Source of the DNA: a virus | DNA: 30,587 bases | Direction: 5' to 3' (one strand) | Virus record (IMG/VR): IMGVR_UViG_3300035085_000003 | Span: 1 to 30,587 of that record | Part shown: positions 5,077 through 26,128 of the stretch, piece by piece | How the letters are laid out: every line of letters starts with the position of its first letter | Numbering within the stretch: the first letter of the stretch is position 1 | Program-made: the position numbers and the translations under genes | Notes under the pieces: model-generated | What the model was told of the DNA's origin: nothing | The model's database searches: none | What the model saw: only the letters and a program-made list of their open reading frames with translations

Positions 5077-5572
5077 AGCAGTTAGCAGGCGTGCGAAGAG
5101 GACTTGGGACAGGCTCGGGAGCTGGTACGGCTCCCGGCTCGCCGATCAGTACGGCGAGCACCCGCCCGAAGATTGGGTGGATCTGTTCGACCGCACCGAC
5201 GACGAGCGGCTAGACCAAGCACTTTCGTCCGTTCGCCATGCGTCGCCGATTCACCCGCCTACTCTCGGGCAGCTCGAGAACGCAATACCGCGGCGCGAAG
5301 TAGCGGGCTCGCCGTCACGAGCGCAAACCGTCGCCAACGCAATCATGACGCGACATGGGGCCGAGATGTGCATACACCAGCTCAAACAGCCGTGGAATTA
5401 CTTCGGGCCGGTCAAGGACTTCATTAGCAAAAGTCGCGGCGAGAACGGCAACGAGGTAATCAAGCATCCCGAGGTTCGCGGCGTTCAAGTGCCCGCATGC
5501 GCCGAGTGCTCCAAGCCGACGTTTCGGATGCTCGTCGACGACATCGTGACGCAGGGTGTTCGCGCAGCATGA
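5069..5572 (+). CDS. Putative replication protein, helicase-loader-like (lambda P position)
   Basis: A 167-residue protein directly after the O-like gene, overlapping it by eight bases and leading into NinG by an ATGA overlap. This is the slot of P-type helicase loaders. Residues 1-25 are basic (VSRRAKRTWDRLGSWYGSRL). Residues 33-73 (PEDWVDLFDRTDDERLDQAL, then PPTLGQLENAI) resemble the helical middle and PP-T/S-x-x-EF-like motif of phage loaders. A CAEC pair lies at residues 144-147. No Walker A motif is present, so it is not a DnaC-type ATPase. The assignment leans on gene order. Confidence 0.5.
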   Translation: MARAVSRRAKRTWDRLGSWYGSRLADQYGEHPPEDWVDLFDRTDDERLDQALSSVRHASPIHPPTLGQLENAIPRREVAGSPSRAQTVANAIMTRHGAEMCIHQLKQPWNYFGPVKDFISKSRGENGNEVIKHPEVRGVQVPACAECSKPTFRMLVDDIVTQGVRAA

Positions 5573-6180
5573 GCGCCGTTCTCAAACCCCGCCGCGAGCG
5601 CCGCTGCCGCGTATGCAGCGAGATGTTCCGCCCGTTCAATACGATTCAGCCAGTCTGTGCGACTCCGAAATGCGCGCTCGAGTGGGCGCGACGGTTGAAG
5701 GCGAAGAAGCTGCGCAAGGAAGTGCGAGCGGGTCTCGTGAAGCTGCGGACGGTCAGCGACTGGACGAAGCTCGCGCAGGCCGAGTTCAACCGTTTCGTGA
5801 GACTGCGAGATGAAGGCTTGCCGTGTATCTCGTGCGGAGCCTCGAGCCCGCCGAATCTGCATGGTGGAGCGTGGGATTGTGGTCACTATCGCTCGGTCGG
5901 CGCGGCGCCTGAGCTCCGATTCGACGAGCGCAACGCGGCGCGGCAATGCAAATCATGCAATAGCGGCACACGGCGCGGTGGGAGATACGTCATGCCGGCG
6001 GAGCGCGCTACAACCATCCGCGCGATGTACCGCACGATGCTCATTCAGCGGATTGGTCTCGCGACGGTCGAGTGGTTGGAGGGTCCGCACGAGCCGAAGC
6101 GCTACCGCGTCGATGACCTGATTGCGATTCGCGACTTGTATCGCACCAAGTGGCGACAGTTGCTGGAGCTGAGGAAGTGA
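5569..6180 (+). CDS. ninG: NinG (Rap) recombination protein
   Basis: The 203-residue product matches the NinG family throughout. It has an N-terminal knuckle C13-x2-C16 with C30 and C35, a basic helix (ARRLKAKKLRKEVR), the conserved block around residues 70-90 (AEFNRFVRLRD, then PCISCG), the hallmark GGAWDCGHYRSVGAAPELRF (99-118), C127-x2-C130-N, and near the C-terminus RIGLATVEWLEGPHEP. In lambda, NinG/Rap is a Holliday-junction-type endonuclease that helps RecBCD-dependent phage-plasmid recombination. The ATG at 5569 overlaps the upstream stop (ATGA), and the 24 earlier in-frame residues lie inside the loader-like gene. Confidence 0.93.
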   Translation: MSAVLKPRRERRCRVCSEMFRPFNTIQPVCATPKCALEWARRLKAKKLRKEVRAGLVKLRTVSDWTKLAQAEFNRFVRLRDEGLPCISCGASSPPNLHGGAWDCGHYRSVGAAPELRFDERNAARQCKSCNSGTRRGGRYVMPAERATTIRAMYRTMLIQRIGLATVEWLEGPHEPKRYRVDDLIAIRDLYRTKWRQLLELRK

Positions 6181-6182
6181 AC

Positions 6183-6374
6183 GTGCGCCGTGAGAGTTTG
6201 ATCATATGGCGTCGCTCTGGTTTTGGCAGCCGGCGACTCGTCCACGTTCTTGATTCCGGCGCCGATGATTTGGCGCCATCGCGGGCATGGTTTCCGCCAC
6301 CGCAGTATCGGGATCTGCGCGCCTCCAAGTTTCATCCAGCTTGGCGCTGGAAAATGTGGGGGTATGGCGCATGA
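6183..6374 (+). CDS. Small basic tryptophan-rich protein between NinG and DUF1367
   Basis: A 63-residue protein read from GTG at 6183, which has GAGGAA six bases upstream; GTG at 6177 overlaps the NinG stop but is too close to that site. The product is basic and rich in Trp and Arg (VRRESLIIWRRSGFGSRRLV, and HPAWRWKMWGYG at the end). It is not recognised. Its stop overlaps the ATG of the next gene (ATGA), placing it in the nin-like cluster of small recombination/regulation genes. Confidence 0.55.
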   Translation: MRRESLIIWRRSGFGSRRLVHVLDSGADDLAPSRAWFPPPQYRDLRASKFHPAWRWKMWGYGA

Positions 6375-6826
6375 CTCGCCTTTACCTCGTCAAGACAGGT
6401 GCTGGCGAGCTAGTGGGCTGGGATCAGCATGACCTGGCGTATCTCACAAAGCTCGGCGCTGGCGAGCCACTCGAATGCGACACGCGTAAAGCCCGTCACC
6501 CCGAGCACCATCGAAAATTCTTCGCGCTCCTACAGCAAGCATTCGTGAACCAAGAGAAGTACCGCAACCTCACGGATCTCCTGATCGCGCTCAAGCTCAA
6601 GACCGGCTGGTATGACGAACACATTACGGCCGAAGGGAAACTGGTCTATGTGCCGAAATCGATTTCCTTCGCGCGCATGGGGCAGGAGGAATTCGAGGCA
6701 TTCTATAAGGCCGCGATTATTGCGCTCGCCGAGCTGACGGATTCAGAGCAAGTAACGGCCGAGGCTGATTCCATCATCGCCCACGACTTCGCCGGCCAGC
6801 CGCTGGAGGATTTGCCGATTGGGTAA
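6371..6826 (+). CDS. DUF1367 family phage protein
   Basis: A 151-residue protein resembling the DUF1367 family, small proteins common in the nin-like region of lambda-related phages. The supporting block is around residues 40-60 (ARHPEHHRKFFALLQQAF), followed by LTDLLIALKLKTGWYDEHIT and LVYVPKSISFARMGQEEFEA. The first 35 residues contain a near repeat (LVKTGAGEL and LTKLGAGEP), also visible as a repeated GCTGGCGAGC in the DNA. GGGGG precedes the ATG by eight bases. The biochemical role of the family is not known to me. About 165 non-coding bases follow. Confidence 0.75.
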   Translation: MTRLYLVKTGAGELVGWDQHDLAYLTKLGAGEPLECDTRKARHPEHHRKFFALLQQAFVNQEKYRNLTDLLIALKLKTGWYDEHITAEGKLVYVPKSISFARMGQEEFEAFYKAAIIALAELTDSEQVTAEADSIIAHDFAGQPLEDLPIG

Positions 6827-8347: not shown

Positions 8348-8908
8348 ATGCGCCAATTCCTGGTGCTCGCCGTGCTTTGCCTGGCGGGCTCGCCGGTCTT
8401 TGGTCAGACATGCGCGCCCTCTATTCCCGATCCGGTGCCGGTCGATGCCTCTCGCGTGAGCTGGGCCGCAACGACCAAGAACACCAACAATAGCGACGTT
8501 CAGCCGCCCGTGACGTACACGGTCTACGAGTTCGGCGCCCGGCGCTGCACGACGCAGGTTCTGGCAGTGGGATTTGCGGGCCTTCCGGTAGGCCAGCATG
8601 TCTGGACCGTCTCAGCGAGCACCCCGAGTCTCGGCGAGGGCGAGCAGAGCGCGCGGGCGGTCAAATGGACTACCGCGCCCAGCACTCCACCCACGCCTAC
8701 CCCGACTCCCTCGCCGCCTTCGGCGCTCACCGTGACGTCAACGCGCATCGACGCCGCGGAATGGACCTGTCGCGATTCGGCCGGCGCAGTTCTCAGCTCG
8801 AACACGCGACAGGACAAGGCGCAGGAGTCCTGCACGAACCTCGCGCTCAAGAACCCCGGCAAGGTCTACGAGATGCGGCCGAGCGGCTACCGGATTCAGG
8901 CGCAGTGA
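8348..8908 (+). CDS. Secreted protein with signal peptide and Pro-Thr linker
   Basis: A 186-residue protein with GGAG before the ATG. Residues 1-20 (MRQFLVLAVLCLAGSPVFGQ) form a signal peptide: short basic start, hydrophobic core and small residues before a likely cleavage near residue 19-20. No lipobox is seen. The mature part has a beta-rich domain (about residues 35-105, with YTVYEFGARRC, GLPVGQHVWTVSA), a linker rich in Thr and Pro (STPPTPTPTPSPP) and a second small domain with two cysteines (EWTCRD, QESCTN) that could form a disulfide in the periplasm. Phage genes for exported proteins may alter the host surface. No specific family is recognised. Confidence 0.7.
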   Translation: MRQFLVLAVLCLAGSPVFGQTCAPSIPDPVPVDASRVSWAATTKNTNNSDVQPPVTYTVYEFGARRCTTQVLAVGFAGLPVGQHVWTVSASTPSLGEGEQSARAVKWTTAPSTPPTPTPTPSPPSALTVTSTRIDAAEWTCRDSAGAVLSSNTRQDKAQESCTNLALKNPGKVYEMRPSGYRIQAQ

Positions 8909-9186
8909 TTCCGACGAGGCCGGATTGGCGCGCCATAGTTCTCGCACTTCGGCGGCGCTTTGGTTCGGACCGGGCGATTTCGGTCGCTCTGACGGAGCGG
9001 GGCGAGTCAGTTCATCAGCAGACGTTGACGTACATCTTATGCAAACGCTCCGGTAGGAGCCCGTCATTTCGCGTCGGGGCGGCGCTTCTGAACCTTCACG
9101 AAGAGTACGACGAACACCCAAATTACTGCTCCGATCAAGAACAGTACCGGAAGAACAACGATTCCGAGCGCGAGCTCCATGCTTAG
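8905..9186 (+). CDS. Second Cro-like DNA-binding protein (late region)
   Basis: A GTG overlapping the previous stop (GTGA) starts a 93-residue protein whose core aligns with the Cro-like protein at 3604: DRAISVALTERGESVHQQTL against DSEIARVISEGGVDVSQPTI, and SPSFRVGAALLNLHEE against APSYELGVALKALHKK. The recognition segment differs (VHQQTLTY against VSQPTISR), so it should bind other sites. The last 25 residues are very polar (DQEQYRKNNDSERELHA) and overlap a hydrophobic antisense frame. It may control late or host genes. The paralogy is read by eye and should be tested. Confidence 0.55.
   Translation: MIPTRPDWRAIVLALRRRFGSDRAISVALTERGESVHQQTLTYILCKRSGRSPSFRVGAALLNLHEEYDEHPNYCSDQEQYRKNNDSERELHA
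9064..9180 (-). CDS. Possible antisense 38-aa membrane micro-protein
   Basis: On the strand opposite the second Cro-like gene a frame encodes MELALGIVVLPVLFLIGAVI, then WVFVVLFVKVQKRRPDAK: one long hydrophobic helix with a basic cytoplasmic-type tail. Such shape is typical of phage membrane micro-proteins. Against it, there is no clear ribosome site, it lies antisense within a rightward transcript, and antisense frames of charged sequence become hydrophobic by chance. Confidence 0.25.
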   Translation of the reverse strand: MELALGIVVLPVLFLIGAVIWVFVVLFVKVQKRRPDAK

Positions 9187-9234
9187 AGAATGCACTGCTC
9201 TCGCGCTCGGAGCAATCCCGAGGAGACATAAGGC

Positions 9235-9486
9235 GTGACGGTTCTCTCAGATCCCGACCGCGCCCAGCTCCACGCCGATTTCATGCGCGTGGCCGAAAAC
9301 ATACTCGCGCTCACGATCACCAAGGCCGAGCTGCGCTCCGCACTCAATGCGGCCGATGACTGGGCCGATACGAACGCGTCGGCTTTCAATCTCGCGATCC
9401 CGCAACCGGCTAGGGGCGTGATGAGCTCAAGGCAAAAGACGTTGCTGCTGTCCTACATCATCCTCAAACGGGCGAAGTTGCTCTAA
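9235..9486 (+). CDS. Small conserved-looking phage protein, 83 aa
   Basis: A GTG start preceded by AGGAG and AAGG. The product is helical: DPDRAQLHADFMRVAENILA, TKAELRSALNAADDWADTN, then SRQKTLLLSYIILKRAKLL. It has no signal peptide or cysteine. I have the impression of a small family found near virion genes in other phages but cannot name it. Its TAA overlaps the ATG of the following beta-rich gene (TAATG), so it is read as part of the same late module. Confidence 0.6.
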   Translation: MTVLSDPDRAQLHADFMRVAENILALTITKAELRSALNAADDWADTNASAFNLAIPQPARGVMSSRQKTLLLSYIILKRAKLL

Positions 9487-9989
9487 TGGCGACGGTCAAG
9501 GTACCTCTCGATATCGGAGCAGCACTCTTTCCGACCTCGAATCCCGCGGCGCCGACGCTCTTCCAAGGCACGAACTTCCCCGTGCAGGGACTGGCGTTCG
9601 ACGCGACCACGCAAGAAACGGCGTTCTGGATCTTCCGCGCGGCGAGCTACGGCAGCGGCAATCTCACGTTCAGCCTCTACTGGTATGCCGATACCGCGAG
9701 CTCGGGCGGGGTTGTATTCGAGGTCGCCATCGCTGCGATCACGCCCGACACCGACTCACAGGACGTGGAGACGAAGGCTTTCGCGACTGCCCAGCAGAAC
9801 AGCGATACGCATTTGGGCACGACCGGACAGCGCGTCCATCAGATGTCGATCACGATCAGTAATCTCGATTCGATCGCGGCCGATGACTACGTGGCGCTCA
9901 GGCTTCGCAGGGTTCCCGCAGATGGCAGCGACACCATGACGGGCGACGCGATTGTGGCCGATATTCAGGTCAGCTATAGCGATACCTGA
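9486..9989 (+). CDS. Beta-rich virion-type protein, 167 aa
   Basis: The sequence is dominated by short beta stretches and small residues (FWIFRAASYGSGNLTFSLYW, VVFEVAIAAITPDT, VHQMSITISNLDSIAADDYV, VALRLRRV), ending VADIQVSYSDT, a pattern typical of jelly-roll-like virion proteins. It lacks a signal peptide, so secretion is not expected. It is the first of a run of such proteins upstream of the terminase and joins the next gene by TGATG. The exact role (fibre, decoration or head surface) is not shown. Confidence 0.6.
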   Translation: MATVKVPLDIGAALFPTSNPAAPTLFQGTNFPVQGLAFDATTQETAFWIFRAASYGSGNLTFSLYWYADTASSGGVVFEVAIAAITPDTDSQDVETKAFATAQQNSDTHLGTTGQRVHQMSITISNLDSIAADDYVALRLRRVPADGSDTMTGDAIVADIQVSYSDT

Positions 9990-10726
9990 TGGCCGTTCTC
10001 GTCGACGTTACCACGGAGTCGTATTCGCGCACCGCGAGCCTCTCGCAGACGTTTTCGATGTGCGGGCACGGCGTGCGGACGGGCACCGATGGATCGCGCT
10101 CGCAAATGGTGTGCGGCATGGACAACACGTCCGGCGGCACCGACGCTCTTTCGTATCTCGTATGGGACATTCCGAGTGCATCGCTCGTCATCGTGACGGG
10201 CGAGACGGGCGGCAGCTTCCCGACGACAACGCTTGTAGCGCTCGGCACGGGAACGACGTTCTTCTGGGCGTTCACGCATGACAACGGCAGTGGGGACACG
10301 TGGGGCTACTATCGTGCGCACGACGCGAACACGTTCACGACTGCCAACCACACGCGCACACTCGCGACGACGCTGACGACGCTATGGATCGGCAATAACC
10401 GCTATAGCGAGGCGTTCTTCGGGAACCTCTGGAACATCAAGGTTTGGGATCGCGTGTTGAGCGCATCCGAACTGCTCGTCGAGTCGTACTACCGCCGCCC
10501 GATGTTCCCCTCGAGCATCAACTTCTGGTGGCCGCTCGACAATGCGAGCGACACGAATGACTACGGCGGCAATGGGCGCAATCCCACTATCGGCGGCACA
10601 CCGACCGATGCGGATGGCAGTTTCGGGCTTTGGCGCCAGAAGCGGCGGCTGATTATTCCCGCTGCCGCGGCAGCCGGGGGAACGCTGCGCAAATACAGCT
10701 TGTTGCAAATGGGGATGGGGCGATAG
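9989..10726 (+). CDS. LamG/concanavalin-like lectin-domain virion protein
   Basis: A 245-residue protein with the pattern of a LamG-type beta sandwich. Alternating strands (SYLVWDIPSASLVIVTG, FFWAFTHDNGSGDTWGYYRA) are followed by the diagnostic end of such domains: LWIGNNRYSEAFFGNLWNIK, then VWDRVLSASELLVESYYRRP. After this comes WWPLDNASDTNDYGGNGRNP, another lectin-like element. These domains often bind sugars, and in phages they occur on fibres and surface appendages. No transmembrane or signal segment is present. Start and end are set by a TGATG junction upstream and by the next gene's GTG four bases downstream of the TAG. Ligand and virion location are unknown. Confidence 0.65.
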   Translation: MAVLVDVTTESYSRTASLSQTFSMCGHGVRTGTDGSRSQMVCGMDNTSGGTDALSYLVWDIPSASLVIVTGETGGSFPTTTLVALGTGTTFFWAFTHDNGSGDTWGYYRAHDANTFTTANHTRTLATTLTTLWIGNNRYSEAFFGNLWNIKVWDRVLSASELLVESYYRRPMFPSSINFWWPLDNASDTNDYGGNGRNPTIGGTPTDADGSFGLWRQKRRLIIPAAAAAGGTLRKYSLLQMGMGR

Positions 10727-10729
10727 CGC

Positions 10730-11911
10730 GTGGCTGATAACACTGACCTAGACGCAGGCGCAGGTGGCGACAAGATCGTCACGCGCGAGATTTCGCATGG
10801 TGGCGACACCGCGAAACTGCAAGGTCAGTTCCTCATGGGCATCTCGGGCACCGAGGGCGCCTATACAGCGGGCGCTGTGGGCGGTGACGCGACCAATGGT
10901 CTAGATGTTGATGTTACGCGCTCAGCGCTTCCCACAGGCGCATCGACATCCGCAAAACAACCGGCGCTAGGCACAGCCGGCACGGCTTCGACCGACGTGA
11001 TTACGGTCCAGGGCATTGCGTCGATGACGCCAATCCTGGCCACTCTCCAGGCCTCTACCAATACGCAAGAAGTGGTGGGAGATGCCGCTCATGATGCCGC
11101 GGCAGCCGGTAATCCGCTGCTCATGGGCGCCTATGCCTCAGCTGCGGCTCCAACCGATGTTTCCGCGGACGCCGATGCCGTGCGTCTTTGGGCGCTGCGC
11201 AATGGCTCTCTAGTAGTCAACATTGCTGCGGCGGGCGCTCTTATCGGCGCGACATCGAATGCTCTCGATGTCAATATTAAGTCCAGCGCCACTCTCACAG
11301 TAGGCTCGCATGCGGTTACGAACGCGGGCACGTTCGTTGTACAGATCGATGGCAACGCGCTAACCGCATTGCAGCTCATCGATGACCCAGTTGTAGCCGA
11401 TGACGCGGCATTCACTGCGGCTTCGACCAAGGTGATGATGGCAGGCTTTGTCGCCGACGAAGCTTCAACGGACCCCGTCAATGAGGACGACGGCGGCGCG
11501 GCGAGGATGACCCTCGACCGTAAGCTGATTACGACACCGTATGTCCATGCTGCTGCTGGCGGGCATACGCCGTACAAGAATCTCGACTGTGACGAGACCG
11601 AGGACGCGATCAAAGCGAGCGCCGGCAAGCTCTTTTGGATTCATTGCATCAATCTCTCGAATGCCAAGCGCTATCTCAAGATTTACAACGATACCACGGC
11701 CAATGTGTCGGTGGGGACGACGGTCCCAGACCTCACCTTCCCGATTCCGACAATGGCCGACACGAATGGCGCTGGATTCACGATCCATTTCGGTGATGCA
11801 GGGTGCCAGTTCAGCGCTGCGATTACCGTTGCGGCCACAACTGGGTTCGCAGACAACGACACCGGTGCTCCAGGTGCAAACGAAGTGATTTTCAACGCGG
11901 GCTATCTGTGA
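10730..11911 (+). CDS. Large beta-rich structural protein, 393 aa
   Basis: The composition is Ala/Gly/Thr/Asp-rich with repeated short strands, as in phage fibre or decoration proteins. The N-terminus (TDLDAGAGGDKIVTREISHG) and the middle (ALDVNIKSSATLTVGSHAV, VVQIDGNALTALQLIDDPV) resemble proteins near virion genes in many environmental phages. The C-terminal part (LFWIHCINLSNAKRYLKIY, then GTTVPDLTFPIPTM) looks like a separate beta domain of the type used in tail-associated proteins. The GTG start lies just after the previous stop, and the next gene overlaps its end by GTGA. The precise function is not recognised. Confidence 0.6.
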   Translation: MADNTDLDAGAGGDKIVTREISHGGDTAKLQGQFLMGISGTEGAYTAGAVGGDATNGLDVDVTRSALPTGASTSAKQPALGTAGTASTDVITVQGIASMTPILATLQASTNTQEVVGDAAHDAAAAGNPLLMGAYASAAAPTDVSADADAVRLWALRNGSLVVNIAAAGALIGATSNALDVNIKSSATLTVGSHAVTNAGTFVVQIDGNALTALQLIDDPVVADDAAFTAASTKVMMAGFVADEASTDPVNEDDGGAARMTLDRKLITTPYVHAAAGGHTPYKNLDCDETEDAIKASAGKLFWIHCINLSNAKRYLKIYNDTTANVSVGTTVPDLTFPIPTMADTNGAGFTIHFGDAGCQFSAAITVAATTGFADNDTGAPGANEVIFNAGYL

Positions 11912-18561: not shown

Positions 18562-19671
18562 ATGGCTACCGTAGGCAACACAGGTGCGCCGAGCACCAAT
18601 ACCGTCTACTACGACGCACTGTTGAGCACGACGCTCGACGGCTATGTCGGCTCGGGATCGATGTTCGACAACATCTTCAAGGATTCCGCATTTCTCGCGG
18701 CCTTGCGGATGAAAGATGCGGTCCAGATGCAGAACGGCGGCGAGCGGATTCGTGCCCCGCTCATGTACGGCAACAATACGACCGTCATGTCCTACTCGGA
18801 CTACGAGACGTTGGAGACGACGCCCCAAGACGGCATGACCACGGCGTTCTATGAGTGGCGCGAAATTGCGGCGACGATTTCGATTTCCCGCAAGGAGCAG
18901 CGCCAGAACTCCGGCGAGGCGCAGATCATCGAGCTCTTGGGCTCGAAGGTCCGGCAGGCCGAGATGAGCATTCGTGAAGAGGTCAATCGCCAACTGGTGC
19001 AGGGCACGGTGTCGTCCGCGACATTCGTTCCCGGCAATAGCGCGAAGGATCTCAACCCGCTCGGCTGGTTCCTGCGCAAGCTGAACGGGACCGATCCGGT
19101 TGCAGGCGGCAACGTCGGCAACATTGCTGGTGCGTCGAATAGCTGGTGGCGGCATCAGACGGCGGTGATCGACTCGAACTCCACCGACACGGGCAATTCG
19201 TTTGCCATCAACGTGTCGACCTACAAGGGGTTCAACCTCGCTCTTCGCCGGATGTACAACCACTGCTCGAAGGGCTCGGGTGGATCACCGAATCTCGTGC
19301 TGCTCGATCAGGTCTCTTACGAGACCTACGAGAACGCGCTCGACGACAAGGTGCGCTACCTCGACACGAAGATGGCGGATCGGGGCTTCGATGCGATCAA
19401 GCTCCGCGGCGCCACCTGTGTGTGGGACGAGCAGGTTCCGGACATCGACAACGGTACGGTGGCGATCACGTCCGGTTCCGCGTTCTTCCTGAACACGGAG
19501 TTCTACAAGCTCATCATCGACTCGGAGACGGACTTCGCGACGACTCCGTTCGTGGAGCCCGAGAACCAGACGGCGAAGACGGCGAAGGTGCTTTTCATGG
19601 GCAACGCGATTTGCGCGAACCTGCGGAAGTGCGGCGTCGTTTACGCCATCAGTCAGACGATCGCGGCCTAG
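18562..19671 (+). CDS. Major capsid protein
   Basis: A 369-residue protein immediately after scaffold, with GAGG nine bases before the ATG. The sequence fits a HK97-fold coat: an N-terminal arm (DALLSTTLDGYVGSGSMFDN), an extended loop region (ERIRAPLMYGNNTTVMSYSD, TTAFYEWREIAATISISRKE), a long spine-like helix (IIELLGSKVRQAEMSIREEV), then a mixed domain and a C-terminal strand (LFMGNAICANLRKCGVVYAI). It is shorter than P22 coat (430 residues), whose extra insertion domain seems absent. It forms the icosahedral shell together with the portal. Confidence 0.8.
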   Translation: MATVGNTGAPSTNTVYYDALLSTTLDGYVGSGSMFDNIFKDSAFLAALRMKDAVQMQNGGERIRAPLMYGNNTTVMSYSDYETLETTPQDGMTTAFYEWREIAATISISRKEQRQNSGEAQIIELLGSKVRQAEMSIREEVNRQLVQGTVSSATFVPGNSAKDLNPLGWFLRKLNGTDPVAGGNVGNIAGASNSWWRHQTAVIDSNSTDTGNSFAINVSTYKGFNLALRRMYNHCSKGSGGSPNLVLLDQVSYETYENALDDKVRYLDTKMADRGFDAIKLRGATCVWDEQVPDIDNGTVAITSGSAFFLNTEFYKLIIDSETDFATTPFVEPENQTAKTAKVLFMGNAICANLRKCGVVYAISQTIAA

Positions 19672-20223: not shown

Positions 20224-20245
20224 GGCCGCCTGTAGGGAGGCGGCC
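20224..20245 (+). terminator. Weak hairpin after the virion gene
   Basis: GGCCGCC (20224-20230) and GGCGGCC (20239-20245) form a seven-base GC stem with an eight-base loop. Only GTTCTCCT follows, so the U-tract is poor. It may stabilise mRNA or give partial termination. Confidence 0.4.
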
Positions 20246-20253
20246 GTTCTCCT

Positions 20254-20466
20254 ATGCGTCCGCAAGACGATGTGTATCTGATCTGCGATCAGTGCCATGG
20301 ACCCGCCTTTCTTTTGAAAGGAAGTAGGTCAACGAAATATTGCGACGCATGCAGCATGTCTTTTCAACTGATAGGGAGTTTTCATGAACAAGTTGAATTC
20401 GGCGCTCATGCCGGAACAGAAGTATTCAAAGGACGGCGAGTTCAAAGAGCCGGTCCTGAGGTGTGA
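20254..20466 (+). CDS. Zinc-ribbon protein overlapping the next zinc-ribbon gene
   Basis: A 70-residue product with C11-x2-C14 (ICDQCHG) and C30-x2-C33 (YCDACS), a four-cysteine ribbon. The first 45 residues look like a real domain; the last 27 lie inside the next gene in another frame and are less natural. The only ribosome-like site (AGGGAGG) is 13 bases upstream, so expression is doubtful. Overlap of 83 bases between two zinc-ribbon genes is unusual. Confidence 0.45.
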   Translation: MRPQDDVYLICDQCHGPAFLLKGSRSTKYCDACSMSFQLIGSFHEQVEFGAHAGTEVFKGRRVQRAGPEV

Positions 20467-20677
20467 TCGATGCGCCAATCTGATTCTCCTGGCGACGCTG
20501 CATCAGATCGGCATGTGCCCTCACTGCTCGAATATTCGTGTGGCGAATGTGCGGACGGTGAACGACAAGGAGATGGCCCAGCTCATCGACTGGGCAGGGA
20601 ACGGAACGATCGATAAGGACTTCGTTGCGCTCTTTGCGCCGATGCCCGAGTCCGAACACCCGGTGACTCTGCGATGA
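20384..20677 (+). CDS. Zinc-ribbon protein, 97 aa
   Basis: AGGGAG lies five bases before the ATG, a strong start. C27-x2-C30 (LRCDRCANL) and C45-x2-C48 (MCPHCSN) form a four-cysteine ribbon, followed by a helix and loop region (VRTVNDKEMAQLIDWAGN) and an acidic, proline-rich end. Its stop overlaps the ATG of the glycosyltransferase fusion (ATGA), so the two are co-translated and may act together. The function is unknown; the ribbon could bind protein or nucleic acid. Confidence 0.65.
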   Translation: MNKLNSALMPEQKYSKDGEFKEPVLRCDRCANLILLATLHQIGMCPHCSNIRVANVRTVNDKEMAQLIDWAGNGTIDKDFVALFAPMPESEHPVTLR

Positions 20678-22077
20678 GCCGCGTTCTAATCGGCATACCC
20701 TGTTATCGCGACGTTCCGGCCGAAACTCTCGAGGACTATCTCCGTTTCGCTTACCACCTCGGTCGTAGGTCGACGAGGCACGAGTACTTCGTCGCAATCA
20801 AGGCGAAGACCGAGCAGTTCAGGGCGCGCAACTCCATCGTCGAGGGCGCACTCCAGGTTGGCTGCGATTACATCTTCTTCCTCGACGACGATCATGTTCT
20901 CGACTGGGAAAAGACTTCCGGTCCCGCGAGCAACTACGACATCATCGATAGGCTCATTGACCACATGGAGCATGACGATATGCTCGGAGTAGTTGGAGCC
21001 GTGTACTATCATCGCGGCAGCGAGTGCCGGCCGGTGCTGATGAAGCGCGGCACGGATGGCGGGTACTACTATCTCCGTGACGATGAAGTAACTGGACAGC
21101 TACAGGACGTAGCGGTCCAGGGCGGCGGGTGCATGCTGCTCCGCTGCAAGATGTTCGATCGCATCCATCAACCGTGGTTTGCGCCGGAGCACCAACTCGG
21201 AACGGATATCCAGATTTGCACGAAGGCTCTCGAGGCCGGATTCAAGGTGAAGTGCGATACCGGCATCAAGATTGGCCACGTGATGAACTCTCGTGAGATC
21301 GTGACACCAGCCAACCGGCATAGGATCGCCCTCGAGAGTTCGCGTACCGCGTCGCAAGCCTCGCAAGCCTCGCAGGGCATGGACAGTGCGTGGACGACGA
21401 ACAGTGCCCTAGCGCTCTATCGACAAGACGCCGAGGAGTATCTGGAGTTGAGCTTCGAGGGTATCCGCGATCTCTGCATGCGTTACAGCATGGCGGACTT
21501 CCGCGAGTACCAGAACTCGGATGACTACTATCGGAAGAAGGGCCGGGAGCAATTGGCCCGACAGGTGATGTTCCACCATCTTCCCTCGAGCATCGAGGAG
21601 ATGAATCACTTCCACCAGCTCATCAACATGCAGGCGGAGGCTCATGGTGCAGATTTCGGGTGCGGCTCTGCTCCGGTGACCTTCGAGTTCGTGATGAAGG
21701 GTCACAAGATGGACTTCATCGACATCGATGGCTCTGGAGCCTATGAGTTCCTGAAGTGGCGAGCGAAGAAGCGCGGGGTTTCCGATCGATGCGGCTGGAA
21801 GCTCTCCGGCCCCTACGACTATGTGCTCATGCTGGATTCTCTCGAGCACATCAAGGACTGGCAGCCAGTGCTCGAGCAAATCGTCGCCAGCATCAAGCCG
21901 AATGGCGGTCTGATTTTGAATTTCTTCGAGAACATGGACTACGCCAATCCTGAGCACGTGAACATGGACAAAGAAGGCGTGCGCAAATTCTTGACGAACC
22001 ATGGCGTCTACCCGGTGCATGGGTTCCTATGGGTCAAGCACGAGTATGAGGTAGCGAGCAAAGGAGCAGCCGCATGA
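20674..22077 (+). CDS. Glycosyltransferase-methyltransferase fusion protein
   Basis: A 467-residue protein with two enzyme-like halves. The N-terminal half (1-205) is a GT-A glycosyltransferase: MSRVLIGIPCYRDVPAETLE opens the nucleotide-sugar fold, FFLDDDH (68-74) is a DxD-type metal and sugar-nucleotide site, LGTDIQIC (175-182) offers the acidic residue near the acceptor and GH (201-202) a possible metal ligand. A Ser-Gln-Ala linker (about 225-235) and a helical part follow. The C-terminal half (about 320-455) resembles a SAM methyltransferase: ADFGCGSAP (326-334), the acidic pair IDIDG near 350, and DYVLMLDSLEHI (382-393). It may modify a virion component with a methylated sugar. The substrate is unknown. 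Confidence 0.75.
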   Translation: MSRVLIGIPCYRDVPAETLEDYLRFAYHLGRRSTRHEYFVAIKAKTEQFRARNSIVEGALQVGCDYIFFLDDDHVLDWEKTSGPASNYDIIDRLIDHMEHDDMLGVVGAVYYHRGSECRPVLMKRGTDGGYYYLRDDEVTGQLQDVAVQGGGCMLLRCKMFDRIHQPWFAPEHQLGTDIQICTKALEAGFKVKCDTGIKIGHVMNSREIVTPANRHRIALESSRTASQASQASQGMDSAWTTNSALALYRQDAEEYLELSFEGIRDLCMRYSMADFREYQNSDDYYRKKGREQLARQVMFHHLPSSIEEMNHFHQLINMQAEAHGADFGCGSAPVTFEFVMKGHKMDFIDIDGSGAYEFLKWRAKKRGVSDRCGWKLSGPYDYVLMLDSLEHIKDWQPVLEQIVASIKPNGGLILNFFENMDYANPEHVNMDKEGVRKFLTNHGVYPVHGFLWVKHEYEVASKGAAA

Positions 22078-22373: not shown

Positions 22374-22459
22374 CCGAACTGGGCGGGGCAGGTGTGCCAA
22401 CGCTGATCGGCGGCCCTATCCCGTCAGGACGCGGTAACCCCGGCCCCACCCTTCTATGA
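22325..22459 (+). CDS. Possible 44-aa coupling gene before the gp4-like gene
   Basis: An ATG inside the preceding gene opens 44 codons that end as ATGA on the next gene's start. The product ends GVPTLIGGPIPSGRGNPGPT followed by LL. The downstream gene has no ribosome site (CCACCCTTCT precedes its ATG), so ribosomes arriving through this frame would explain how it starts. The composition is GC-rich and repetitive, so coding is only moderately likely. Confidence 0.35.
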   Translation: MDHAERRSPAPARQPLTELGGAGVPTLIGGPIPSGRGNPGPTLL

Positions 22460-23118
22460 ACTACCTTGAGCAGAAAGTGCTGGAGCTGATAGGAGAGTCA
22501 GTCGAAAGCCCCGACGTGTTCACGGATGACGACGAGGGGATCTCTCAGGTCCGTGACAGCATCAATGACGCCATCCAAGAGATCGCGATCATTACGGGCG
22601 GATACAAGCGGCAGTACCTGTTGCCGTTGAGATCCGGGCAGGCCTTTTATCGGTTCCGCCCGCGAAACGGCTATTTCGGGTGGGTCACGGATTGCTGGGA
22701 CATCACTCGAAAGGTGAGGCTCGAGCAGACCGACCCGATCAAGCTGAGCCGTTTCGACCCACGGTGGATGACGAGCTCGGGTTCGTGCGAAGCCTACATG
22801 CAGCTCGGGGAAGACGTGATCGGGTTTTATCGTAAGCCCACCTCAAGCGCTGGCGGAATGGAGATTACGATCGTCGAGATCCCCCACGCCTATACGACCG
22901 ATCGGGACCGAATCAAGCTCCGAGATTCGTTCCAGTCGGCGGTCGTTCACTTTGCCGTGGGAGAGTTCTGGGCTTCTCGCGGAGACGCGAAGGAAGCCAC
23001 GAATCATGGGCGAATCTACATGGATACGCTTGGGCTCAAGGAAGACTACGCGATGTCACGCTGGGCGACCCCCACCTTCACAGTCGCGAAAGACCCGTGG
23101 CCTAAGGCGACCTCGTGA
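22456..23118 (+). CDS. Head-tail adaptor protein, P22 gp4-like position
   Basis: A 220-residue protein, first of the tail-assembly block. Helices at the start (EQKVLELIGESVESPDVFTD, ISQVRDSINDAIQEIAIITG), then strands (YRFRPRNGYFGWVTDCWDIT) and a final helical part (DSFQSAVVHFAVGEFWASRG, HGRIYMDTLGLKEDYAMSRW) resemble head-tail adaptors that sit under the portal. In P22 gp4 (166 residues) this is the first tail accessory factor. Assignment rests on gene order and fold impression. The next gene overlaps by GTGA. Confidence 0.5.
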   Translation: MNYLEQKVLELIGESVESPDVFTDDDEGISQVRDSINDAIQEIAIITGGYKRQYLLPLRSGQAFYRFRPRNGYFGWVTDCWDITRKVRLEQTDPIKLSRFDPRWMTSSGSCEAYMQLGEDVIGFYRKPTSSAGGMEITIVEIPHAYTTDRDRIKLRDSFQSAVVHFAVGEFWASRGDAKEATNHGRIYMDTLGLKEDYAMSRWATPTFTVAKDPWPKATS

Positions 23119-24158
23119 GCTGGTCCGACGAGCTTGATAGGTTGCGAGTGTATCTGCGAGATCCAAACGGGCTCATTTGGTCGGAAGCCTTCCTGCGCCA
23201 TCTTTACAACGACATTCAGCAGGATCTACAGAACAAGACCAAGTGCCTGGAGGACGTGACAACCCAGCGGGTTCCGCAGCTCTATCACTTCGCCTATCAG
23301 TTCGATTGGGAGTATGCCTATCTCCCGACGACGCTCAGCCAGTTCTATCAGTGCCTCACTGTTCATGATACGGCATCCATTTGCCATCGTTGGGAGGCGC
23401 AGCAGTACACCGGCATTGCGGGAGACATTTCGGACTATGGAGCGCACGTCACCCAGCCGTGGGAAATGTACATGAGCCTCACGTGTGGGGAGGAGTCAAA
23501 AATGCGCTTCCCACAGAACTTCAACAGCGTGAAGTTCATAGCCTACGACGAGGAGCCGATCGGCACGACTTCGCGCAAGCTCGTGCAGGCCAACGATTCT
23601 TCGTATCTCATCACGCAGGGTCGACCGATCGCCTACTACCCCTGCGATGAGACCGATAACTCCTATGTGCTTTACCCACGCCCGTCAGCGGGATTCGAGA
23701 ACGATATTTCTGGATCAGGACTGGCCTTCTATGCCTCCGGAGATACCGAGAGTGACGAGACCGGAATAATCGCTGTCCGAGATGACTCTACGCCGAGCTC
23801 AAGCGAAGGTGCCTCGGTGGATATCGTGAACACCGAGAACAGCGTGTTCATGATCTACGACGTTTCGCCGAACGATATGGTTGCGCTCGGGGATGAACCC
23901 GAGTTCCCGGTGTTTCTCCGCAAGTACATTCGCTACGGTGTGCTGTCGAGAGCCTACGGGGCCAATACGGACGGCAAGATCCAGAGTCTGTCCGACTATT
24001 GGGGCGTGCGCTATGACCTCGGGTGCGAGTTCGTAAAGCGCTATGTGCGCAACCGGAGAAAGGACCGTGACTATCGGCTCGTCACTCAGGGTATACGGCC
24101 GAGTCGCTATCGTCGCCATCCCAGGCTGCCGGCGGGCTACCCCGCGATCAACCCGTGA
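23115..24158 (+). CDS. Virion protein between gp4-like and gp10-like genes
   Basis: A 347-residue protein read from GTG overlapping the previous stop (GTGA). It begins like an adaptor (DELDRLRVYLRDPNGLIWSE, FLRHLYNDIQQDLQNKTK), continues with aromatic beta-rich sequence (QLYHFAYQFDWEYAYLPTTL), an acidic Ser-rich loop (around residues 220-240) and a basic helical end (SDYWGVRYDLGCEFVKRYVR, then RRKDRDYRLV). P22 has no gene of this size at this place. It may be a second neck component. The family is not recognised. Confidence 0.5.
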   Translation: MSWSDELDRLRVYLRDPNGLIWSEAFLRHLYNDIQQDLQNKTKCLEDVTTQRVPQLYHFAYQFDWEYAYLPTTLSQFYQCLTVHDTASICHRWEAQQYTGIAGDISDYGAHVTQPWEMYMSLTCGEESKMRFPQNFNSVKFIAYDEEPIGTTSRKLVQANDSSYLITQGRPIAYYPCDETDNSYVLYPRPSAGFENDISGSGLAFYASGDTESDETGIIAVRDDSTPSSSEGASVDIVNTENSVFMIYDVSPNDMVALGDEPEFPVFLRKYIRYGVLSRAYGANTDGKIQSLSDYWGVRYDLGCEFVKRYVRNRRKDRDYRLVTQGIRPSRYRRHPRLPAGYPAINP

Positions 24159-25081
24159 CCGTGTTCTTCGACCCGAGCGGTTCGCTAGACATAGCGACCG
24201 ATCCCAGCGATTTGCCGGAAACCGGAGACGGCAACGAATCGACCTCCGGCGCGATGACTCGCTGCAAGAACCTTCGGGTGAACCAGAAGGGCCAGGCCAT
24301 TACTCGCGACGGCTCTGCGAAGCTCAACGCGTCCGCGCTTGCGGCGGCGATCAACTGGATTGAAGAGCAAGGCGGCGATCGGTACTCGTTTGCTGGTAGC
24401 GCGATTTATCTCAACGAATCGAGCATCGAAAGCGGGTTGACCGATGCGCAGTGGTCGGCGGTCAAGTACTCGGCCTTCAATGACTTGACCGAGCAGGTTT
24501 TCGCGCTGAACGGGACCGATCGCAAACGGATTTCTGGATCTGATGTTTGGGAGTGGGGGATAGAGGCTCCCACGGTAGCTCCGATTCTCGCGGCCGGCGC
24601 AGGCACGGGGCTCACGGGCGAATACAACGCCGTCTATACCTATGTGCGAAAGGTGGATACGGCGATCGTTTGTGAAAGCAACCCGTCCCCCGCATCCGGT
24701 TCGACGCAAAACCTCTCGAATCAGTCGCTCTCGATCGACGTGGAGCAGCCGACCGATCCGCAGGTCACGCATATTCGCGTGTATCGCACGCTTCAGGGCG
24801 GGGAGACGTACTTCCTAGATCGGGAAATCGCCGTGAACTCGTCGGCGACGTATGGCTATACCTACGACTGGGAGCTGGCCGACGAGTATTTAGATCCCGA
24901 CGAAGGGTTTGCATTTTCGACCGCGGACGCCACTCATTCCACGCAAAACAGCTACACGTGGGAAGAGACGTATGCGACCCACGACAGCAACGATACGAGC
25001 GGAACCTCCGGAGACAGCGGAACCGTCGTGTATGGCCAAGACCCTTGGAGCGATCTCACCAACTCGCAGTTCTACTTCTAA
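24155..25081 (+). CDS. N-terminal part of gp10-like tail protein, ended by in-frame TAA
   Basis: A 308-residue product read from GTG (GTGA overlap). It contains GAMTRCKNLRVNQKGQAITR, an opening typical of gp10-like tail stabilisation proteins, and beta-rich sequence (QWSAVKYSAFNDLTEQVFAL, GLTGEYNAVYTYVRKVDTAI, VTHIRVYRTLQGGETYFLDR). It stops at TAA 25079-25081 after SDLTNSQFYF, and the very next codon is the ATG of a gene in the same frame. Together they would make 657 codons. In P22, gp10 (472 residues) seals the portal under the tail needle. A split or recoded gene is the likely interpretation. Confidence 0.55.
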   Translation: MTVFFDPSGSLDIATDPSDLPETGDGNESTSGAMTRCKNLRVNQKGQAITRDGSAKLNASALAAAINWIEEQGGDRYSFAGSAIYLNESSIESGLTDAQWSAVKYSAFNDLTEQVFALNGTDRKRISGSDVWEWGIEAPTVAPILAAGAGTGLTGEYNAVYTYVRKVDTAIVCESNPSPASGSTQNLSNQSLSIDVEQPTDPQVTHIRVYRTLQGGETYFLDREIAVNSSATYGYTYDWELADEYLDPDEGFAFSTADATHSTQNSYTWEETYATHDSNDTSGTSGDSGTVVYGQDPWSDLTNSQFYF

Positions 25082-26128
25082 ATGCCGTACACAACACCGC
25101 TCGGAGAATTCGATTCGGACACCCCGGACGCGAATCTTTCTGTCGAGGTCAACACCGACCACGGTCGACCGCCGCCCGGCAGCTTCGTATTCGGTCCCGC
25201 ATACGAGGGGACGGTGTTCATCATCATCGAGAACGCTCTGTTCTACTGTTTGCCGAGACAACCCGAGCACTGGCCGGAAACGTATTTCATCGAGGTGAGC
25301 ACACCGCAGTTCCCCGGAGTGACCGGGGTGTTCTTGAACGGACAAGCGTACTACCTCACGAAGCGGGAAATCTTCTACATCCAAGGTACTGGAACAGGGA
25401 CGTTCCAGCCGATCCCGACGAAGGCGAAAACCGGAGCGCAATCGTTGCAGGGTGCGGTCGCAGTCGACGGCAAGGGGATTCTACATACCGGTCCTGATGG
25501 GATATATCTCTTTGCGGGCGGCAACGATCGCAAGTTGAGCGAGGAGACGCTAGAGCCGATCTTCCGCGGCGAAGATACCAACGGCATGGCGGGCGTTGCC
25601 GATATGTCCACGTCTTGGCTGCTTGCTCGGGGCAACAACGCCTATTTCGGCTACCGCTCCTCGGGTCACGACTACCCCTCAAACGTCCTTGTGATGAATC
25701 TCGAGACCGGCAAGGTCACGAGCTACATCTACAACGATGGGAATGAAGTCGAGATCCGTTGCGTTGCGGTGGATGACACGAATAGCCGTTTGCTTGCGGG
25801 CGATGCTGACGGTTATGTGCGAGTTCTCGATTCCCCCTCGTACACCGATGACGATGGCGAGGCGATCGATTGGGAAGTGCAGAGCAAGGACTATGAACTC
25901 CAGACCCGTAGACACTTCCCTCGCTGGGCCAAGTACGACGTAGACGCATCAGACACGGAGTCGTGCCAAGGCGAGATCGTCATGGATGGCGAAGTTCATC
26001 AGACGCATACGATTACCGGCGCCCGGGATACGAGGCGTCGTTTAATAGAGATAGGGAATGGCAACCGATTATCGATCCGCATTTCCGGGAGCGGTCCCGC
26101 AAGGGTCTATTCGGCCGAGCTCGAATGA
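25082..26128 (+). CDS. C-terminal part of gp10-like tail protein
   Basis: A 348-residue product in frame with the preceding one, starting with ATG right after its TAA and lacking a ribosome site (TTCTACTTCTAA precedes). The content suits a beta-propeller: VFIIIENALFYCLPRQPEHW, GVFLNGQAYYLTKREIFYIQ, GKGILHTGPDGIYLFAGG, SNVLVMNLETGKVTSYIYN, and later RRHFPRWAKYDVDASDTE. This is the type of repeat pattern seen in phage tail hub or stabilisation proteins. It is likely translated by readthrough or restart. The GNAT-like gene overlaps its last 71 bases. Confidence 0.55.
   Translation: MPYTTPLGEFDSDTPDANLSVEVNTDHGRPPPGSFVFGPAYEGTVFIIIENALFYCLPRQPEHWPETYFIEVSTPQFPGVTGVFLNGQAYYLTKREIFYIQGTGTGTFQPIPTKAKTGAQSLQGAVAVDGKGILHTGPDGIYLFAGGNDRKLSEETLEPIFRGEDTNGMAGVADMSTSWLLARGNNAYFGYRSSGHDYPSNVLVMNLETGKVTSYIYNDGNEVEIRCVAVDDTNSRLLAGDADGYVRVLDSPSYTDDDGEAIDWEVQSKDYELQTRRHFPRWAKYDVDASDTESCQGEIVMDGEVHQTHTITGARDTRRRLIEIGNGNRLSIRISGSGPARVYSAELE

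Follow-up and report, generated by a model that had tools for sequence, protein, structure and literature searches.

Protein A064R of the chlorovirus PBCV-1 carries two glycosyltransferase domains, the first of the GT-A type, and an O-methyltransferase. Their activities were assayed on synthetic acceptors, and the protein supplies the final part of the capsid protein glycan, including its methylated terminal sugar (PMC9614988). The virus STIV has an essential glycosyltransferase, A197, whose target may be its glycosylated coat protein (PMC10551542). In mycobacteriophages, sugars added to capsid and tail tube proteins shield the particles from antibodies, and the phage-encoded glycosyltransferases Che8 gp110 and Corndog gp38 are needed for capsid glycosylation (PMC12363180). 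Here we describe a fusion of a GT-A glycosyltransferase and a class I S-adenosylmethionine (SAM) methyltransferase in the viral record IMGVR_UViG_3300035085_000003, whose 30,587 bases, the whole stretch analysed, we call the window. We consider it moderately likely that this fusion glycosylates a head decoration protein and O-methylates the added sugar, within an exchangeable head-coat module.

In both A064R and the fusion, a single viral polypeptide carries a GT-A glycosyltransferase and, at its C terminus, a class I SAM methyltransferase. A precedent therefore exists for the fused transferase-methylase that an initial annotation of this DNA, made by a model from the letters alone, did not recognise. 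The two proteins are likened by architecture. A064R consists of three domains and 638 amino acids, belongs to a virus of an algal host and is not described in an exchangeable decoration-protein block; the fusion lacks its second glycosyltransferase domain and has about 110 residues of helices at positions 213-320. The archaeal virus protein STIV A197 is a lone GT-A domain, 17% identical to the fusion, without a methyltransferase. The text consulted on mycobacteriophages (PMC12363180) bears out the statement of the initial annotation that phage enzymes glycosylate virion proteins in these phages, and mentions neither a fused methyltransferase nor a decoration gene exchanged along with the enzyme; by fold, the Che8 protein Q855A2 matches the fusion weakly. 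In the open-access literature searched on phage decoration-protein glycosylation and on capsid glycosylation with O-methyltransferases, no such system is described. Viral fusions of glycosyltransferase and methyltransferase are not new in principle; an exchangeable decoration-protein module in a tailed phage looks new.

The open reading frame (ORF) of the fusion starts with ATG and contains no internal stop (Table 1). Its GT-A domain covers approximately residues 1-207 and includes the motif FFLDDDH (68-74), a helical linker or lid occupies residues 213-320, and the methyltransferase core extends over approximately residues 321-458 with the motif ADFGCGSAP (326-334). The N-terminal half matches PHROG 1574 (6e-5), Glycos_transf_2 (PF00535; 5e-4, 20.4 bits, below the cut-off of 23.3) and the TET-associated-type glycosyltransferase family (TAGT, PF20691; 4e-4, 20.8 bits, below the cut-off of 27.5). 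The C-terminal half does match methyltransferases, a point on which the initial annotation had staked its reading: Methyltransf_23 (PF13489; 2.7e-10, 40.6 bits, cut-off 27) and Methyltransf_12 (PF08242; 1.8e-8, 35.5 bits, cut-off 30) are both over their cut-offs.

A scan with the methyltransferase half retrieved one full-length relative with identical gene order, and a profile of the two sequences raised the number of full-length relatives in viral contigs to 17 (41-61% identity). Because these 17 keep both motifs, and five more fusion contigs were reached through capsid-gene searches (L064, L067, L071, L073 and L106), the fusion is not a product of chance. The full fusion is present in 23 distinct viral contigs, the window included, always between the major capsid and connector genes. 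Across all 18 aligned sequences, R50, R52, D71-D73, H74, D178 and H202 are invariant in the glycosyltransferase part, including the DxD-type acidic metal motif (D71-D72-D73-H74). The methyltransferase part retains D327, G331, D350, D388, E391 and H392 in all 18; the class I methyltransferase motif I (DxGCG) is present, as are the acidic residues that come after it. A tblastn search of 50,697 phage records returned no full-length match of the fusion, with partial glycosyltransferase matches of at most 43% of the query. The methyltransferase half had no match in phage records, the fusion protein had none in plasmids (tblastn), and no cellular relative was found in scans of bacterial and archaeal genomes. 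The 350-residue A0A0F7L1S0 ("Family 2 glycosyl transferase" of an uncultured marine virus, BFVD), deposited without description of a methyltransferase or locus, is by its 44% identity over the aligned part probably a member of this family. Further phage proteins of this type may exist among uncultivated Caudoviricetes, for example the candidate A0A6J5M7M7.

Structure prediction, proposed as a check in the initial annotation, gave an AlphaFold model (18 sequences) with a mean predicted local distance difference test (pLDDT) score of 87.7, composed of two domains linked by helices and without an evident membrane segment. The N-terminal domain adopts a predicted GT-A fold and the C-terminal domain a predicted class I methyltransferase fold. 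Together with the PHROG 1574 and PF13489 matches, these folds uphold the GT-A domain and the fused SAM-binding domain that had been read from the two motifs. Among the best 50 matches listed in the fold comparison, the best match of model residues 1-218 is STIV A197 (PDB 2c0n; Z 20.1, 2.4 Å over 177 residues). The A064R D1 structure is absent from these 50, which says nothing of how it folds. Further matches of this domain are the LH3 glycosyltransferase domain (Z 17.6), mimivirus R699 (16.2), Mnn9 (15.6) and ColGalT1 (15.3). LH3, ColGalT1 and R699 have the GT-A fold in common with the fusion (Z 15-18) at 12-17% identity and with other partner domains; LH3 and ColGalT1 are collagen glycosyltransferases that act on protein side chains. 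The second domain resembles the class I methyltransferases ChlM, UbiG, NodS and CmoM (Z approximately 15, Rossmann-type fold). Several O-methyltransferase alignments start at residues 247-270, and part of the middle helices therefore probably belongs to the methyltransferase.

The TAGT match brings in a different reading, DNA hypermodification, in which a TAGT-like glycosyltransferase and the methyltransferase would act on modified bases of phage DNA. By Pfam E-value, TAGT ranks first among the glycosyltransferase families, and a match to it recurs in 11 of 19 related records. Every one of these matches, however, lies below the curated cut-off, and the nearest solved folds, among the matches listed, are protein glycosyltransferases. 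The absence of a TET/JBP match in the 19 records argues only weakly in the same direction, the records being partial and the controls silent too. As the fusion gene in addition is exchanged together with a capsid decoration gene and not with replication genes, we find an action on DNA scarcely credible.

Immediately downstream of the major capsid gene, in the window as in nearly all relatives, stands a gene for a decoration-like protein. The top fold matches of its AlphaFold model (42 sequences, pLDDT 85.3) are all phage capsid entries, mostly decoration or stabilising proteins, with Z from 12.8 to 6. HFTV1 is the best (Z 12.8), accompanied by Sf11, Pam3, E217, T1, TW1 and phi29 gp8.5 and, lower, by lambda gpD. 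No match to the protein was found by sequence in phage records; its fold and place lead us to predict a head decoration protein. The order of capsid gene, decoration-like gene and then fusion is kept in 23 of 23 contigs. In five contigs (L010, L022, L023, L064 and L067) the decoration gene occurs in two or three tandem, diverged copies.

Close capsid relatives of the window (up to 79% identity) without the fusion carry a separate-gene cassette instead. It comprises a GT-B and a GT-A glycosyltransferase, a zinc ribbon and, each in most of these relatives, a separate methyltransferase and a small gene of some 110 amino acids. We built trees of eight head genes for 22 fusion genomes and 14 genomes with the separate-gene cassette. 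The cassette type changes once on the decoration-protein tree (support 97) and once on the zinc-ribbon tree (support 100). On the trees of the flanking genes it changes seven to nine times (terL 7, portal 8, scaffold 9, capsid 8, PHROG 399 gene 7, next gene 7), and strongly supported branches by themselves force two to five of these changes. Mean identities follow the same division: capsid proteins are 57 and 67% identical within types and 61% between them, decoration proteins 56 and 67% within and 36% between, and zinc ribbons 41 and 53% within and 22% between. The exchange is clearest between L070 and L069, a contig also numbered L014; the two are 98.4% identical in portal, 98.3% in scaffold and 98.6% in capsid, and 31.9% in decoration protein. 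Their DNA ceases to be homologous near codon 16 of the decoration gene and becomes so again at codons 2-3 of the connector gene. Between the capsid and connector genes, the exchanged block consists of decoration protein, zinc ribbon, fusion and small protein.

Our proposal starts from what was computed directly, namely the two folds with their motifs, the conserved fusion, its fixed place, its co-exchange with the decoration-like protein and its replacement by other sets. We postulate that the GT-A domain, with a metal ion and a nucleotide-sugar supplied by the host, would transfer a sugar onto a virion protein, most likely the decoration protein encoded upstream. The methyltransferase domain would then O-methylate this sugar and cap it. 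Related phages would swap the block for other sets of decoration protein, glycosyltransferase and methyltransferase, so that the head surface would change on a constant shell. We infer the donor sugar, the acceptor, the methyl site and the order of the steps; the benefit would lie in adsorption, recognition or protection. The decoration protein is favoured as acceptor because its gene, unlike the capsid and connector genes, follows the enzymes. In the initial annotation, a sugar was placed on a virion protein or another acceptor and then methylated; for a virion protein this remains the best-supported reading, with the decoration-like protein, and not the major capsid protein, as the likely acceptor.

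The same two activities could act on another virion protein, such as the major capsid protein, the small protein or a connector or tail protein, with the decoration gene as a linked passenger. The major capsid proteins of STIV and PBCV-1 are glycosylated. The small protein, itself a second acceptor candidate, is also locked to the fusion: its gene is found in 22 of the 23 fusion contigs (not in L011) and is missing from all 14 relatives that have the separate-gene cassette. Linkage would account for the co-exchange if recombination uses the conserved flanks, and the co-exchange therefore supports a functional pairing and does not prove it. The capsid, portal and connector genes, however, do not follow the cassette type, and decoration proteins differ far more between types than the capsids beneath them. 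We regard another acceptor as unlikely, while giving it real weight.

A scan with the capsid profile gave 79 loci, in which several other arrangements occupy the same place. The GT-A gene adjoins a methyltransferase gene in L070, L075-L078 and L081, and in reverse order in L079. L107 has the GT-A glycosyltransferase and the methyltransferase as separate neighbours, each related to one half of the fusion. Two distant relatives with the same locus, L099 and L109, have a GT-A gene followed by a second, differently built GT2-methyltransferase fusion (in L109 at 9730-10980; Glycos_transf_2 1.1e-17, Methyltransf_11 5.5e-13). A methyltransferase is present in 45 of 48 cassettes with GT-A and in 1 of 14 without (62 loci), a descriptive count for which a plain Fisher value of 9e-10 ignores kinship and is not to be taken at face value.

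Some fusion cassettes hold additional enzymes. The fusion cassette of L019 (7873-9734) contains a gene of the rhamnosyl O-methyltransferase/CmcI family (1.9e-40) and a DegT/DnrJ sugar-aminotransferase-type gene (2.5e-100), both between the decoration gene and the fusion; L020 has a DegT/DnrJ aminotransferase gene at that position (8794-9939), and L022 one further glycosyltransferase. Radical-SAM/SPASM genes lie inside the cassette in L006 (7720-8589) and L017 (8422-9129), both by Pfam, and in L096 (7936-8736) by eye, which suggests further modification of a peptide or sugar. A sulfotransferase-like gene of L071 (13867-14559; PF17784, just over the cut-off) follows right after the fusion and small gene, and the glycan may be sulfated in this virus. 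No extra ORF of at least 90 amino acids was found between the capsid and connector genes of L011, L012, L013, L014, L016 and L073; the fusion is therefore the sole recognisable enzyme of the block there.

These arrangements bear on whether the fusion serves nothing more than co-regulation of its two domains, with the methyltransferase acting on a side chain of a virion protein or on some other substrate instead of the added sugar. The fold matches of the methyltransferase domain are broad, spanning small-molecule and RNA enzymes (UbiG, ChlM, NodS, CmoM, DnrK), and leave its substrate unfixed. The pairing nevertheless recurs in differently built cassettes and in a second, different fusion, and L019 adds its rhamnosyl O-methyltransferase/CmcI family gene. 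We judge a merely co-regulatory fusion improbable. In a wider picture, a whole clade of uncultivated phages would carry "coat cassettes", each a decoration protein with dedicated glycosylating and methyl-capping enzymes, swapped as a block and re-typing the head surface without a change of the shell. The fusion would be the most compact version. We advance this clade-wide extension tentatively, as a possibility somewhat short of probable.

Several points weigh against glycosylation and methyl-capping of the decoration protein by the fusion. All Pfam GT-A matches by sequence are sub-cut-off, and the model does not show reliably how the two domains sit relative to each other (predicted template modelling score, pTM, 0.51). 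The co-exchange may be linkage alone, as the decoration gene has the conserved capsid gene on one side and the cassette on the other. Zinc ribbons occur also without glycosyltransferases. Three of the 48 GT-A cassettes (L037, L055 and L062) have no recognisable methyltransferase, and the co-occurrence of GT-A and methyltransferase is not phylogenetically independent, with only two supported independent pairs.

The gene neighbourhood is summarised in Table 1. Of the placement between capsid and tail genes given in the initial annotation, the capsid side stands, and the other side consists of connector genes. No recognisable tail-fibre or tail-tube gene adjoins the fusion, whose neighbours are the decoration-like gene upstream and connector genes downstream; a terminase gene is also in the neighbourhood. 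The fusion ORF overlaps the zinc-ribbon ORF at its start and the small ORF at its 3' end, each by ATGA. The zinc ribbon is present in 22 of the 23 fusion contigs (not in L071), directly before the fusion in 18, and both the overlaps and this co-occurrence confirm the proposed coupling of the fusion to the zinc-ribbon and small genes. The small protein matched no family, and homology with the small gene of the separate-gene cassette was not detected. The zinc ribbon as an exclusive mark of glycosyltransferase loci was considered and dropped, as it is found in L088-L095 and L098 with neither glycosyltransferase nor methyltransferase.

Phage glycosyltransferases commonly act on host O-antigen. 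The fusion could accordingly transfer its sugar and methyl group to glycans of the host envelope, in seroconversion or superinfection exclusion, and the variation of the cassettes resembles that of envelope glycan loci. The site inside the head gene block, frames that overlap the neighbouring genes, co-exchange with a head protein and a fusion protein without an evident membrane segment all speak against such a role, which we hold to be highly unlikely.

Table 1. Features of the exchanged block and its flanks in the window.
Feature	Position	Strand	Remarks
Major capsid protein gene	18562..19671	+	PHROG 9953 major head protein, 1.8e-38; upstream flank, stays when the cassette swaps
Decoration-like protein, 159 aa	19730..20209	+	All-beta; first gene of the exchange unit; favoured acceptor
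G+C hairpin GGCCGCC-TGTAGGGA-GGCGGCC	20224..20245	+	Follows the decoration gene; candidate attenuator
Zinc-ribbon protein (CDRCANL...CPHCSN), 97 aa	20384..20677	+	Belongs to the exchange unit
GT-A glycosyltransferase - class I SAM methyltransferase fusion, 467 aa	20674..22077	+	ORF, Pfam/PHROG, model
Small protein, 99 aa	22074..22373	+	No family match
PHROG 399 structural (connector-like) protein gene	22456..23118	+	Head and packaging, 8.6e-7; downstream flank, stays when the cassette swaps

G+C-rich hairpins stand at the place matching that in Table 1, right after the decoration stop, in many relatives, some of them followed by a T run. A hairpin here would fit a high output of decoration protein with little enzyme, and may set a high decoration-to-enzyme ratio. 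Counts in the promoter and terminator scan were at chance, and the hairpin of the window is absent from the terminator list. A short ORF at 20254-20466 with a CDQC...CDAC pattern overlaps the zinc-ribbon gene in another frame; it is possibly a second small zinc-binding protein, or chance. Elsewhere in the window, the adjacent genes 24155-25081 and 25082-26128 correspond to a single ORF in most relatives, as in L012 (10308-12014). Recombination genes resembling lambda NinG and NinB lie upstream of the head block, at 5497-6826, and a 245-residue protein encoded upstream of the terminase gene (9989-10726) has a weak LamG/concanavalin-like match (PF13385, 4e-4, below the cut-off).

Few cases of phage virion glycosylation are known, and the enzymes have seldom been matched to their acceptors. 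In the block of approximately 2.5 kb described here, an exterior head protein appears to be coupled to a glycan-writing, methyl-capping enzyme of its own, and natural swaps of the block between near-identical viruses constitute a built-in experiment. If our proposal is true, the question of which enzyme serves which acceptor becomes directly testable, and the fusion would offer a compact route to capsid decoration proteins that bear a defined methylated sugar. It would also explain how the surface chemistry of the head changes independently of the capsid shell.
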